Shown in pieces: positions 642 to 57,673 of a DNA stretch of 64,000 nucleotides. The position numbers and the translations under genes were made by a program. This DNA comes from Bacteroidota bacterium (GTDB taxonomy: Bacteria > Bacteroidota > Bacteroidia > Palsa-965): contig JACQAM010000006.1 of NCBI GenBank assembly GCA_016194975.1, positions 62,001 to 126,000 on the forward strand, given 5' to 3'. The stretch's first letter is position 1; each line of letters starts with the position of its first letter. Below the pieces are notes generated by a model, which was not told the DNA's origin, did not search any database, and saw only the letters and a list, made by a program, of their open reading frames with translations.

Positions 642-2009
642 TCACTCCTTCACAATTTTACTTCTAATAATTTTATCCTGCTGCTGAATTTCAACAAAAT
701 AAATTCCGTTCGCAAGCGAAGATATATCCAGCACGAACTGGTCGCCGGTTTGATTTTTCTTTTCAAATAAAGTTTTTCCATCAACACTGATCAATATTAT
801 TTTAGTGTCAGTGACTTTGCTCGTCAATGAGATTTTCACATTATCATTCGCCGGGTTCGGATAAAGTGAAATGAAATTATCCGGGGCGTTTTCACTTACA
901 GAAGTAGTGATCGCATTCAGTTTCATCACCGAAATTTTATTCGCATCGTTGCTGTCCCAATATTCTGCATAAATATCATTGGTGGAATTGATCGCGATGT
1001 TTGGAAATTCTATTTGCCCGAATGAGAATCCCGCATTGCCCGCGTACACCCACGAAGAACCCGTGAAATATTCTACTGAAGTTTTTCCGGAATAAGATCC
1101 ATCGGGAAAAACAACGAACGGAGTATTGCCTGCATCAAGAGCAATGTTGTTGAGATAATCGACATCGGTATTTAAATTTTGTCCGCCTACATAATTCCAG
1201 CTTGCTCCGTTGAACATTTGCACATTCGGCGCAAAAGGATTGGAACCGGTGTTGTAAGAAATGTAAGGAGTTGTTCCGCTGTTATCGAAAGTGATGTGCG
1301 AATACTGAATAGTTCCCGCAGAAAATGTGGAAGAGCCCACGTGCACCCAATTCGTTCCATTGTACATCATGCAACTCTCCATAAATCCTACTGTCTGATC
1401 CTGGTAAGCGATGTATGGAAGATCGGCTCCGCTCAGCGCCATTTTCATTTGGCCGGTTCCTCCGGCCGTGAATCCTGCAGTTCCTACATTCAGCCAATTA
1501 GTGCCGTTGTATTTCTGCACAACCGCCTTTCCGGAATAAGCATTGTCAACATAAGAAACAAAAGCAGTATCCGCGCTGCTGAATTTTATCGTGAGATCAT
1601 TCACCACTCCCGCAGAAAATCCTGCGCTTCCTACATTCACCCAACTCGCGCCATTGAATTTCATAACGGTGGCATGCGAAGAATTTCCCTGGTCACCGAA
1701 TGCAACATAAGGTTCATTCGCTGCATTGAACGCAATGGAAACTTCATATCCCTGCCCGGCAGAAAATCCAGCGACGCCCACATTCACCCAGCTCGCCCCG
1801 TTGTACATCATCACAGAAATTTTTCCGGAATTCGACGCATCGGGATACGCAACATAAGGAGCACCATTGTTGTCGAGTGCAAAACCGGTGTAAGTAAAAC
1901 CGGAAACAGGATTGGAAAACCCCTGCGTGCCGACTTGCGTCCATGTTTGAGAAGTGAGATGTGAGATGTGGTAAGTGAGAAGGGCGAGGAGAAGTAGAAG
2001 TTTTTTCAT
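642..2009 (-). CDS. Secreted repeat protein with T9SS type A sorting domain
   Basis: 455 residues. An N-terminal signal peptide (MKKLLLLLALL) is followed by at least six imperfect repeats of about 50 residues, each with a core like NGASWVNVGxAGFSAG and alternating strand-forming residues, which suggests a beta-propeller or similar solenoid. The last 80 residues hold SLYPNPANDNVKISL and end GIYFVEIQQQDKIIRSKIVKE-like, the pattern of the type IX secretion C-terminal sorting domain. I infer export to the cell surface or medium. No catalytic motif is visible and the substrate is unknown. Likely monocistronic. Confidence 0.85.
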   Translation of the reverse strand: MKKLLLLLALLTYHISHLTSQTWTQVGTQGFSNPVSGFTYTGFALDNNGAPYVAYPDASNSGKISVMMYNGASWVNVGVAGFSAGQGYEVSIAFNAANEPYVAFGDQGNSSHATVMKFNGASWVNVGSAGFSAGVVNDLTIKFSSADTAFVSYVDNAYSGKAVVQKYNGTNWLNVGTAGFTAGGTGQMKMALSGADLPYIAYQDQTVGFMESCMMYNGTNWVHVGSSTFSAGTIQYSHITFDNSGTTPYISYNTGSNPFAPNVQMFNGASWNYVGGQNLNTDVDYLNNIALDAGNTPFVVFPDGSYSGKTSVEYFTGSSWVYAGNAGFSFGQIEFPNIAINSTNDIYAEYWDSNDANKISVMKLNAITTSVSENAPDNFISLYPNPANDNVKISLTSKVTDTKIILISVDGKTLFEKKNQTGDQFVLDISSLANGIYFVEIQQQDKIIRSKIVKE

Positions 2010-2081
2010 TGGGGAATGGGATTTTATTGAACTAATATACCACTATCTAAACAACTCCGCATAACGTTCCGCTAAATTTTC

Positions 2082-2224
2082 GGTAGTGGGTCAGTTTGTT
2101 CTTTTCCGATTCAACTTCGCGCCGGAACTTGCCCTGAAGAATTGAAGGGCGGTTTCTATTCTATTCTTTTATTTAACCGCAAAGACGCTAAGGCGCTAAA
2201 AAATTTTCAAAATGACCTACTACC
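2082..2224. repeat. MITE-like palindromic element, copy 1
   Basis: 143 bp bounded by imperfect 17-bp inverted ends: GGTAGTGGGTCAGTTTG at 2082-2098 and its complement, with two changes, at 2208-2224. The 8 bases AAATTTTC occur directly before (2074-2081) and directly after (2225-2232), consistent with a target-site duplication. The left 42 bases match the complement of the right end of the copy at 56.5 kb, so the two copies are in opposite orientation. The interior includes AACCGCAAAGACGCTAAGGC. No open frame fits, so any movement would need a transposase in trans. Confidence 0.75.
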
Positions 2225-2246
2225 AAATTTTCGAATCGTTGAATTA

Positions 2247-9286: not shown

Positions 9287-9343
9287 CGGTTTGCGGCTGC
9301 AAAAATAAACTTTATTCGAGAACAGATCGCAAATCGTCTATTA

Positions 9344-9517
9344 GGGTAGTGTATTAGTTTGGATTTTGACAATATTTTCAGTTTGAAACTTAGTGTCTTT
9401 GTGGCATCGCTAAATTTCATTGATAACAAAACAATTTTTATCTGGAAAATACTTACGAGGCCACAAAGTCACAAAGGCTCAAAGAAATATCAAAAATTTC
9501 AAACTGACCCACTATCC
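9344..9517. repeat. MITE-like palindromic element, copy 2 (diverged)
   Basis: About 174 bp with ends GGGTAGTGTATTAGTTTG (9344-9361) and, as complement, GGATAGTGGGTCAGTTTG (9500-9517). Inner arms carry TTAGTGTCTTTGTGGC and GCCACAAAGTCACAAAGGC. The flanks share CTATTAG (9338-9344 and 9517-9523), seven bases of a decayed direct repeat. No coding capacity. The rest of the 544-base gap between the tRNA and the kinase gene (9518-9830) holds nothing else I can recognise. Confidence 0.65.
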
Positions 9518-9830
9518 TATTAGCTGTTATTCCGGAAACGGCACGATTATTTCTTATTTTTTGAAAATGAAATGTGGATGATTTTTTCCGCCATTGGATT
9601 ATTACCGGAGGGTAATTGATTTTTTTTGCTGATCATTTCACGGGCATTCTTCATTCAAATTATTTTCTTCACTTACTTCATCTGTATTTCAATTTCTACC
9701 CCCGTTGTTAATATTTTCCTGTGCCGATGTAAGGAATTCATCGATTTTGTATGAAACCCCGGCCAACCTTCCTTTTTCATAAGCGTAAAACAATCTACAC
9801 TGTGCTGACTCCCTATCCTTGTAACCCCCA

Positions 9831-42674: not shown

Positions 42675-42980
42675 ATGAGCAGTATTAAATTATTCGAAAG
42701 CAAACAGGTAAGATCGGTTTGGAATCCAGAAGATGAAAAATGGTATTTCGTTGTAGAAGACGTGATCCTTATCCTCACAGATAGCGCTGACCCAAAACAA
42801 TACATCAAGCGGATGCGTGAACGCGACGAGGAGATTGCTAAAGGATGGGTACAAATTGTACCTACCCTTTTGGTTGATACGATCGGGGGCAAGCAGAATT
42901 TGAATTGTGCCAATGTAAAAAGTCTTCTCCGCATCATTCAATCCATTCCATCACCTAAAGCTTGCAGTCTCACAGTTTGA
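42675..42980 (+). pseudogene. Truncated BRO-N (phage antirepressor-type) gene
   Basis: 101 codons. It has the BRO N-terminal domain: SIKLFESKQVRSVWNPEDEKWYFVVEDVILILTDSADPKQYIKRMRERDEE and LLRIIQSIPSPKA. In relatives the last motif continues into EPFK and a longer protein. Here family identity stops at SIPSPKA (42962) and four foreign codons follow before a stop, exactly where a 79-bp palindromic element starts. BRO-N domains bind DNA and occur in phage and mobile elements. The gene may still make a short protein, but I read it as a remnant. Confidence 0.8.
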
Positions 42981-43041
42981 ACTCTCGCGCATGCCTGTGT
43001 CGGGTGTAACGCCCGACACCACTTCAAACTGTTACACTGCA
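42963..43041. repeat. Palindromic element truncating the BRO-N frame
   Basis: 79 bp with 19-bp inverted ends, TGCAGTCTCACAGTTTGAA (42963-42981) and the complement of TGCAGTGTAACAGTTTGAA (43023-43041), 17 of 19 identical. Inside is a second perfect stem GTGTCGGG / CCCGACAC (42997-43004, 43012-43019). Not related to the GGTAGTGG family by sequence. Confidence 0.75.
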
Positions 43042-55170: not shown

Positions 55171-55946
55171 AAGATCTTCGTTGTGCACTCATCGGTTCAG
55201 GAAATGTAGCCACGCACCTCGGCATCGCGTTACATCGCGCGGGCGTACGCATCACGTGCGTGTACAGCCGCAATGGCGCACATGCACGCACGCTCGCTGC
55301 AAAAGTGCATTCAAAAGCGGTCACAAAAATTTCCGGGATCAATGAAGCAGATGTTTTTCTAATTGCGGTAAAAGATGATGCAATCTCCGCCATAGCGAAA
55401 AAACTCAATGTGAACGACGGGATCGTTCTCCATACTTCCGGTAGTGTGGGAATAGACGTGCTGAAAAAATTCAATCAGCACGGTGTACTTTATCCTTTGC
55501 AATCACTTTCCGTCAACCGGAATATCCACCTCGAAGATGTTCCGATGTGCATCGAGGCGAATGACAAAAGCACTTTACTTTCGGTGAGCAATATTGCGAG
55601 TGTGCTTTCTGATTTTGTTTATGAACTGGATTCACACCAGCGCGCAGCCGCGCATCTCGCAGCCGTGTTCGCAAATAATTTTTCCAATCACATGTATCAC
55701 ATCGCGGATTCCATACTCGAAGAACACGACCTTCCCTTCGATCTCGTTCGCCCGCTTATCCTGGAAACTGCAATGAAAGTGCTCGATCATTCTCCTGCTG
55801 CTTCACAAACGGGCCCCGCTTCGAGAAATGATAAGCATGTGATCAGCCGGCATCTTGCTTCGCTGAAAAAAAATCCGGCTTTGAGAAAAATTTATTTCGA
55901 CATCACGAAAAATATTGCTGCGCAGAAAAAGAAAAGAAAAAAATGA
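55167..55946 (+). CDS. Rossmann-like and DUF2520 domain protein
   Basis: 259 residues. LRCALIGSGNVATHLGIALHRAGVRITCVYSRN is the dinucleotide-binding opening; LHTSGSVGIDVLKKFNQHGVLYPLQSLS and HLAAVFANNFSNHMYHIADSILEEHDLPFDLVRPLI match DUF2520. It resembles ketopantoate/pyrroline-5-carboxylate reductases in layout, but the substrate is unknown. The overlap with ccmF and with kdsC (4 bases each) implies a common transcript. Confidence 0.88.
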   Translation: MKDLRCALIGSGNVATHLGIALHRAGVRITCVYSRNGAHARTLAAKVHSKAVTKISGINEADVFLIAVKDDAISAIAKKLNVNDGIVLHTSGSVGIDVLKKFNQHGVLYPLQSLSVNRNIHLEDVPMCIEANDKSTLLSVSNIASVLSDFVYELDSHQRAAAHLAAVFANNFSNHMYHIADSILEEHDLPFDLVRPLILETAMKVLDHSPAASQTGPASRNDKHVISRHLASLKKNPALRKIYFDITKNIAAQKKKRKK

Positions 55947-56443
55947 ACGGAAATTTTAAATCACGTTTGCACAGCGTAAAGGCATTTATTTTCGATATCG
56001 ACGGCGTACTTACCGACGGAAAACTCATTCTCAATTCCGACGGTTCCATTTCAAGAAGTGTGAATGCGAAAGATGGTTATGCTTTAAGCCGCGCAGTGAA
56101 AGCCGGTTTCAAAGTGGCGATCATTTCCTACGGCCGCGAAGAAGTGATGAAAAAAAGATATTCAGAACTCGGGCTCACCGAAGTTTATCTCGGCATCACC
56201 GACAAAGAAGAAAAACTGAAAGAATTTGAAAGTGTTTATTACCTGAATGCAGATGAAATACTTTTCATGGGCGATGATGTTCCTGATCTCCTGGCAATGA
56301 AAAGATGCGGAGTTCCCTGTTGTCCGTATGATGCCGTGCACGAGATCCGCGAAATTTCTGTTTATGTTTCTCCAATGAAAGGTGGCGATGGTTGCGCGCG
56401 CGATGTGATCGAACAGGTGATGCGATTACAGGGAAAATGGTAA
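55943..56443 (+). CDS. kdsC: KdsC-type HAD phosphatase
   Basis: 166 residues, no cap domain. HAD motif I FDIDGVLTDG (nucleophile and acid Asp), motif II region AIISYGREE (the usual form is IISGR/ISGG), motif III lysine in DKEEKLKEF and motif IV FMGDDVPDLLAMKRCGVPCCP. KdsC removes phosphate from KDO 8-phosphate for LPS. The extra Tyr in motif II is odd. Substrate is inferred from family and could be a related sugar phosphate. Confidence 0.85.
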   Translation: MNGNFKSRLHSVKAFIFDIDGVLTDGKLILNSDGSISRSVNAKDGYALSRAVKAGFKVAIISYGREEVMKKRYSELGLTEVYLGITDKEEKLKEFESVYYLNADEILFMGDDVPDLLAMKRCGVPCCPYDAVHEIREISVYVSPMKGGDGCARDVIEQVMRLQGKW

Positions 56444-56450
56444 ACCCTGT

Positions 56451-56498
56451 CAATTGTCATTGGGAAAATTATTTAAACTGAAATCTCAATGACAATTG
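56451..56498. repeat. Inverted repeat downstream of kdsC
   Basis: Perfect 12-bp arms CAATTGTCATTG (56451-56462) and CAATGACAATTG (56487-56498) with a 24-base loop. The right arm includes the left 8-bp direct repeat of the adjoining MITE-like element. It is probably part of a heptamer-type array (CAATGAC/AAATGAC units) and not a standard terminator. Confidence 0.55.
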
Positions 56499-56626
56499 GG
56501 TAGTGGGGCAGTTTGAAAATTCTTAGCGCCTTAGTGCCTTTGTGGTTTAATAAAAGAATGGTTTAGGAACCACGAAGGCGCCAAGGCGCGAAGTTGAATC
56601 GGAAAAGAGCAAACTGAGCCACTACC
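56499..56626. repeat. MITE-like palindromic element, copy 3
   Basis: 128 bp, nearly perfect palindrome. Ends are GGTAGTGGGGCAGTTTG (56499-56515) and the complement of GGTAGTGGCTCAGTTTG (56610-56626). The inner arms CTTAGCGCCTTAGTGCC and GGCGCCAAGGCGCGAAG also pair. Exact 8-bp direct repeats GACAATTG stand on both sides (56491-56498, 56627-56634). No coding capacity. It lies between kdsC and ubiA, which are adjacent in many relatives. Confidence 0.85.
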
Positions 56627-56677
56627 GACAATTGGCAAATGACCTGTGTCCAATGACAAATGACTATTTTTACGCAG

Positions 56678-57673
56678 ATGATCTCCTTCCTCAAACTTAT
56701 TCGTCTCCCGAATCTTCTCATCATGGCTTTCATGCAGTACATGGTGCGATACTGTGTTATCCTTCCCATACTCGAATTGCGCAAACATGATCTTGATTTT
56801 TCATTGCTGGAATTGCAGATGACCCCGCTCGATTTTTTCCTGCTTGTTCTTTCTACGGTAATGATCGGTGCGGCAGGATACATCATCAACGATTATTTCG
56901 ATGTGAGGATCGACGGAGTGAATCGGCCGGAAACAAACCCGATCGGTAAAGTGGTCAAGCGGCGCGTTGCGATGGCGGCACACATGACGATCAATATCAT
57001 CGGCGCTCTGCTCGGTGTTTATCTTTCCTGGAAATACGGATTGCTGCGCGTGGGTGCATTTATTTTTCTCTCTGCTCCTGCCCTGCTCTGGTTTTATTCC
57101 ACGAATCTTAAACGGCAGTTTTTCATTGGTAATTTCATCATTGCACTACTTTCAGGATTGGTTCCACTGGTGGTCATACTTTTCGAGATCCCGAATATTT
57201 ACAAGGCGTTTCCCGAATTAGTGCAGGGCGGTTATCTCGATCTCAGTTTTGCTTCTCACATCACACTCATCGTCGGACTTTTTGCATTCCTGGTTACATT
57301 GCTTCGCGAAATAATAAAAGATGCAGAAGATTACGAAGGCGATCTTGAATACGGATGCAAAACAATTCCTGTGGTTCTGGGAATTTCAAAAACAAAAATT
57401 CTCATCAGTACGCTTATCGGCCTCGTAGTTTGCGCCATCGGTTATGTGCAGTACCTGCAATTTGATGCGAAGGACTGGATCTCTTTCATTTATTTTTTAG
57501 TGTTGCTGCAGGTGCCTTTTCTTTTTCTTGCTTACCGCGTGATGAATGCGAAAGGAAAAAACGACTGGAGATTCATGAGTTTCATTGTGAAGATCCTCAT
57601 GGTCGCCGGGATCTCCTACCTCTTCGTTTTCGCACACAGCATTCATGAACTTATCGCTGCTGATGTTTCCTGA
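56678..57673 (+). CDS. UbiA prenyltransferase (geranylgeranylglycerol-phosphate-type)
   Basis: 331 residues from the ATG at 56678 (MISFLKLIRLPN); a start at 56660 is possible. About eight to nine membrane helices. Two aspartate motifs bind Mg and prenyl diphosphate: NDYFDVRIDGVNRPETNPIGK and REIIKDAEDYEGDLEYGCKT. UbiA enzymes move prenyl groups onto aromatic or glycerol-phosphate acceptors; Bacteroidetes versions are often named for ether-lipid synthesis, unproven here. Its stop overlaps maf by 29 bases. Confidence 0.85.
   Translation: MISFLKLIRLPNLLIMAFMQYMVRYCVILPILELRKHDLDFSLLELQMTPLDFFLLVLSTVMIGAAGYIINDYFDVRIDGVNRPETNPIGKVVKRRVAMAAHMTINIIGALLGVYLSWKYGLLRVGAFIFLSAPALLWFYSTNLKRQFFIGNFIIALLSGLVPLVVILFEIPNIYKAFPELVQGGYLDLSFASHITLIVGLFAFLVTLLREIIKDAEDYEGDLEYGCKTIPVVLGISKTKILISTLIGLVVCAIGYVQYLQFDAKDWISFIYFLVLLQVPFLFLAYRVMNAKGKNDWRFMSFIVKILMVAGISYLFVFAHSIHELIAADVS

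Follow-up and report, generated by a model that had tools for sequence, protein, structure and literature searches.

Palindromic elements in the window

Three non-coding palindromes with common ends (GGTAGTGNNTCAGTTTG) lie in the window, by which we mean the whole 64,000-nucleotide stretch of DNA analysed, and they raise the question of whether they are mobile elements and which transposase could have moved them. A preliminary description had assigned them to a MITE-like family with exact 8-bp target-site duplications. Its limits for copies 1 and 3, and the 8-mers that directly touch them, are exactly as it had described; for copy 2, the CTATTAG pair was recovered as an exact 7-bp repeat, but the proposed limits of 9344-9517 overshot the element by 1 bp at either end. 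The features are as follows.

2074..2081, no strand: left 8-bp target-site duplication of copy 1, AAATTTTC, read from the sequence
2082..2224, minus strand: MITE copy 1, 143 bp, subfamily A' (variant loop), interior in A orientation on the minus strand
2225..2232, no strand: right 8-bp target-site duplication of copy 1, AAATTTTC
9338..9344, no strand: left 7-bp repeat of copy 2, CTATTAG
9345..9516, minus strand: MITE copy 2, 172 bp, subfamily B, with substitutions in the ends (TATTAG and CTATC)
9517..9523, no strand: right 7-bp repeat of copy 2, CTATTAG
42964..43041, minus strand: candidate fourth copy in the window, decayed, related to the 81-bp subfamily C
56491..56498, no strand: left 8-bp target-site duplication of copy 3, GACAATTG
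56499..56626, plus strand: MITE copy 3, 128 bp, subfamily A, single long hairpin fold
56627..56634, no strand: right 8-bp target-site duplication of copy 3, GACAATTG

In direct reading, copy 1 has the layout AAATTTTC / GGTAGTGGGTCAGTTTG...CTACTACC / AAATTTTC and copy 3 the layout GACAATTG / GGTAGTGGGGCAGTTTG...CACTACC / GACAATTG, and in both the duplication abuts the element on either side. Copy 2 reads CTATTAG / GGTAGTGTATTAGTTTG...CCACTATC / CTATTAG, and its repeat is either 7 bp exact or 8 bp with one change. The predicted fold energy of copy 3, as RNA, is -61.4 kcal/mol. The segment at 42964-43041 is probably a fourth, decayed relative of subfamily C, judging from a local alignment score of 68 (the next best elsewhere in the window is 47), and no target-site duplication was seen there. 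An Rfam scan of the window returned a tRNA as its sole match. Four tandem repeats with 147-bp spacing were also observed at window positions 1313-1809, inside the reading frame 642-2009 (minus strand).

A recently amplified family in the host genome

The host genome (4.10 Mb, 28 contigs, 99.8% complete) was searched with the 17-mer end, which gave 38 forward and 37 reverse matches at up to three mismatches (4 and 6 for the reversed control) and 25 and 24 at up to one mismatch (0 for the control). Pairing of inward-facing ends defined at least 32 distinct elements of 81-217 bp with the 17-bp ends in inverse orientation; the three copies first recognized are therefore all real, but they belong to a larger family with several subfamilies. 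An exact 8-bp direct repeat, differing in sequence between sites, flanks 22 of the 32 elements, while two have one mismatch, two have two mismatches, two match as 7 bp, and four have none. An exact 8-mer match arises by chance at about 2e-5 per site, and the expected number for the family is below 0.001. Of the four copies that lack a target duplication, two (L041:413-600 and L016:1290-1560) have inverted, not direct, flanking repeats (tgaaaaatc/gatttttca and ATGGACT/AGTCCAT, respectively), as if by insertion into, or growth out of, a hairpin.

Alignment resolves four subfamilies: A (128 bp), A' (134-150 bp, which matches A in its left half and departs from it in the right interior), B (172-217 bp), and C (81 bp). 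Recent amplification is indicated by six identical copies of the 128-bp type, each at its own site and with its own duplication. A search with the A interior recovered mainly the paired elements, together with further copies whose ends have decayed, so this interior belongs to the MITE family in the host; its motif had been described as common in environmental genomes, and in the host genome it is almost confined to the family and these decayed copies. The copies are mostly intergenic. Reading frames spanning the rejoined flanks, as a sign of gene interruption, were few and unconvincing and were left out of the evidence. The host also encodes a protein with a type IX sorting domain (TIGR04183), a sign of membership in Bacteroidota.

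No match to the same MITE was found in phages, plasmids, or GTDB contigs, and literature searches, which did not extend to ISfinder, found no IS1-derived MITE with these ends. The palindromes are a real, recently amplified, and unnamed MITE family; the kind itself is already known, and the family is new and ordinary.

Insertion site of copy 3

Copy 3 lies between two genes (window 55943-56443 and 56660-57673) that are adjacent in six relatives. In the host, the spacer between them, stop codon included, measures 219 bp, of which the element and one duplication make up 136 bp. The same spacer is about 98 bp in G001, about 0 (-2) bp in G004, 72 bp in G009, and 45 bp in G008, and it is longer in G007 (159 bp) and G003 (about 500 bp), the spacers being too diverged for base-by-base alignment across relatives. 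The short spacers in four of the six relatives that keep the gene pair fit the expectation for an empty site, and six same-genus genomes contain no end at up to one mismatch. An insertion of copy 3 after species divergence fits this pattern. The MITE interpretation also withstood the refuting conditions named in the preliminary description, which were a lack of flanking 8-bp repeats across the genome and an ancestral element with no empty site.

IS1-type transposases between the same ends

No transposase had been noticed in the window, and the absence of an IS1-type partner extends to the whole host genome (best E 2.5). The host MITEs are therefore orphans, and the donor transposon can only be inferred. 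In other genomes, the end pattern GGTAGTGKVTCAGTTTG is present in 23 of 395 genomes of the class, and IMG/VR has at least 120 stretches with GGTAGTGKRTCAGTTTG. Where such ends are paired there and flanked by exact 8-bp duplications, they enclose 0.1-4.3 kb, and several of the longer elements encode a transposase of about 275-300 aa. In six class genomes with a complete transposase, the gene lies inside an element of 1.4-3.25 kb with the same ends and an exact 8-bp duplication; full-length elements with the same ends, which the preliminary description had proposed to look for, thus exist elsewhere. Across 394 class genomes, six of the eight with the transposase are among the 22 with the ends (odds ratio 69, p 4e-7).

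An independent sample of 80 GTDB loci was drawn by IS1-type transposase sequence only and covers Bacteroidota, Alphaproteobacteria, Nitrospirota, Acidobacteriota, Desulfobacterota, Omnitrophota, Planctomycetota, and others. Both ends and the 8-bp duplication surround the transposase in 60 of these loci (59 exact, one with a mismatch), which accordingly have the GGnnnTG-type ends and 8-9-bp duplications of the IS1 family, and each of the other 20 has at least one end. Both transposase proteins compared with PF03400 scored above its gathering cut-off of 24.1 bits (31.7 and 33.6 bits). Their best NCBIfam match is NF033558 (IS1), and the scores of 68.6 and 77.4 bits fall below the IS1 equivalog cut-off of 100, so the transposase is IS1-like or of a divergent group rather than classical IS1. 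Residues D66, D136, and E201 are invariant in the transposase alignment.

Proposed mobilization of the host copies

The reading that we favour, with a probability of roughly 0.88, is that the MITEs were mobilized by an IS1-type transposase that is absent from this assembly and that the copies are now orphans. Each element would consist of a short non-coding palindrome bounded by two ends (GGTAGTGNNTCAGTTTGAA) that an IS1-type DDE transposase recognizes. An autonomous relative would supply the transposase in trans, and the enzyme would recognize both ends of about 20 bp and move the element into new, mostly intergenic sites, leaving 8-bp target duplications behind. The autonomous relatives would be IS1-family cargo transposons, and the helper was presumably lost or present only transiently in the host. 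The copies, which appear to have no particular function for the host now, would stay orphaned unless such a transposon re-enters.

Only the ends of about 20 bp are common to the MITEs and the autonomous elements, so no single autonomous element visibly gave rise to the MITEs by internal deletion, and an internal-deletion origin is not supported. Positions 8-9 agree between both ends in 55 of 60 autonomous elements (49% expected by chance), whereas they agree in only 4 of 32 MITEs, in which GG is usually combined with GC or with TA. Judging from these end sequences, the MITEs may be hybrids of two ends, or may have drifted. MITEs with the same end type in other class genomes (L106, L107, L108, L117, and L118) have palindromic interiors rich in CTTTGYG units, and such interiors do not occur in the autonomous elements.

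Other explanations for the palindromes were weighed against mobilization by an IS1-type transposase. The copies could have been kept as host signals, such as bidirectional terminators or RNA-stabilising hairpins, as their mostly intergenic location and the strong hairpins predicted for the 128-bp type (about -61 to -66 kcal/mol) would suggest. However, convergent gene pairs are not in excess around the copies (16 co-directional, 5 convergent, and 4 divergent neighbours, against a window background of 18, 6, and 9), and a terminator role was rejected for want of any orientation bias; moreover, the lack of ends in the same-genus genomes indicates that the copies are recent, not conserved. We therefore regard retention as host signals as improbable. 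An IS1595-family transposase came under suspicion as the helper because a truncated relic, the only IS1595 transposase of the host genome, lies on C23 with an 81-bp copy (L060:1413-1493, corresponding to C23:14412-14492) about 11 bp upstream of its frame. IS1595-family elements of the relatives likewise make 8-bp duplications and have ends starting GGTA, but complete ones have other ends, e.g., GGTAACTATATAC...TTGGGACAA, and it was on the ends that this helper was rejected. GGTAGTGNNTCAGTTTG ends were not found on any IS1595 element, whereas IS1-type transposase genes regularly lie between such ends. The 81-bp copy is flanked by a perfect 8-bp duplication of its own (AATTTTTC) and was therefore inserted independently. 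It is thus very improbable that the IS1595 transposase moved the MITEs.

The elements also resemble palindromes of the REP/BIME type, for which a RAYT (IS200-like) transposase is responsible, in being short, palindromic, intergenic, and multicopy. RAYT-linked REPs are not known to have long terminal inverted repeats or target duplications, whereas this family has both, its duplications being exact 8-bp ones, and in other genomes the same ends enclose a matching DDE transposase. A REP/BIME origin is accordingly given almost no weight.

Comparison with known elements

The GGTRGTG-like ends, the 8-bp duplications, and the PF03400/NF033558 DDE transposase place the system beside the IS1 family (IS1, ISDge2, and ISAba3), and closest to its longer members that have a single ORF and passenger genes. 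ISDge2 has similar ends (GGTAGTGGCTGC) and 8-bp repeats (PMC7674623), and an ISAba3-like element has the ends GGTGGTGTTTCAAAAAG and 8-bp repeats (PMC6382973). Unlike IS1-family insertion sequences, the host MITEs contain no gene, and unlike IS1, ISDge2, and ISAba3, the parent elements combine one transposase of about 275 aa with another conserved gene, a small one, and with cargo that varies. Among described MITEs, the 113-bp MITEAba12 of Acinetobacter is likewise non-autonomous, with IS-derived ends and target duplications, and is mobilized in trans, but it has GGCTTTGTTGCACAAA-type ends, 9-bp duplications, and a co-resident partner, ISAba12 (PMC6382973). BrickBuilt, MITEPgRS, and MITE239/700 of Porphyromonas gingivalis are also Bacteroidota MITEs whose ends match an insertion sequence, although these are IS5-type ends with resident partners and irregular duplications (PMC4596501).

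Parent transposons and their cargo

The 60 end-bounded elements of the GTDB sample are 2.2-4.4 kb long (median 3.2 kb), which is the size of most parent transposons. ISfinder already includes IS1-family members of greater length that have passenger genes, so the parent group may not be new. A small basic reading frame of about 75-90 aa, here called KGG, is present in 72 of the 72 IS1-type transposons examined, mostly near one end, although 29 of these were used to build the KGG profile and match by construction (the elements in question are L269-L347, L249-L255, L127, L133, L140, L152, L192, and L193). The encoded protein is of the type RPRDxNQLAKxIVDIATGE...GGLKGGKARAxxLTPEQRxEIAxKAAxxRW. Searches of the same loci gave no KGG frame beyond the element borders. 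The protein belongs to no Pfam or NCBIfam family, and its only match in PHROG is weak and to an entry of unknown function. It is possibly a transposition partner or regulator.

Recurrent cargo matches among 65 representative proteins combine an HTH with Peptidase_M78 (RmrA of RosmerTA, PD-Lambda-2_B), and RmrA/RmrT of RosmerTA are both among the matches; further recurrent matches are to P63C, Panacea, Abi_2, GmrSD, and HEC-06. Examples of cargo are found at L298:2758-4392, L251:851-2666, L277:2725-4452, and L285:3412-4461. Among the matches listed for 65 neighbouring control proteins from outside the elements, no defence family was hit by two or more proteins, and neither RmrA nor PD-Lambda-2 appeared. 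RosmerTA is a toxin-antitoxin group with a role in phage defence (PMC10440598). By these matches, the cargo of the parent transposons often consists of toxin-antitoxin or anti-phage modules (RosmerTA- or PD-Lambda-2-like).

We suggest tentatively, at somewhat short of even odds, that the MITEs are footprints of undescribed and very widespread IS1-like transposons that carry the transposase and KGG between GGTAGTGNNTCAGTTTGAA ends, together with a toxin-antitoxin or anti-phage cassette that can be exchanged, and that are spread across many bacterial phyla as well as viral contigs.

Significance

The MITE family is moderately interesting in itself, mainly for its absent helper and for leading to widespread cargo-carrying transposons. 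As a well-dated burst without a resident transposase, it offers a case of MITEs outliving or outrunning their helper. The parent group is of greater interest: it comprises many small IS1-type transposons, and because their ends and 8-bp duplications reveal the exact borders, the cargo, often toxin-antitoxin and anti-phage modules, can be delimited precisely. The group also brings a conserved small gene, KGG, as a candidate for testing.
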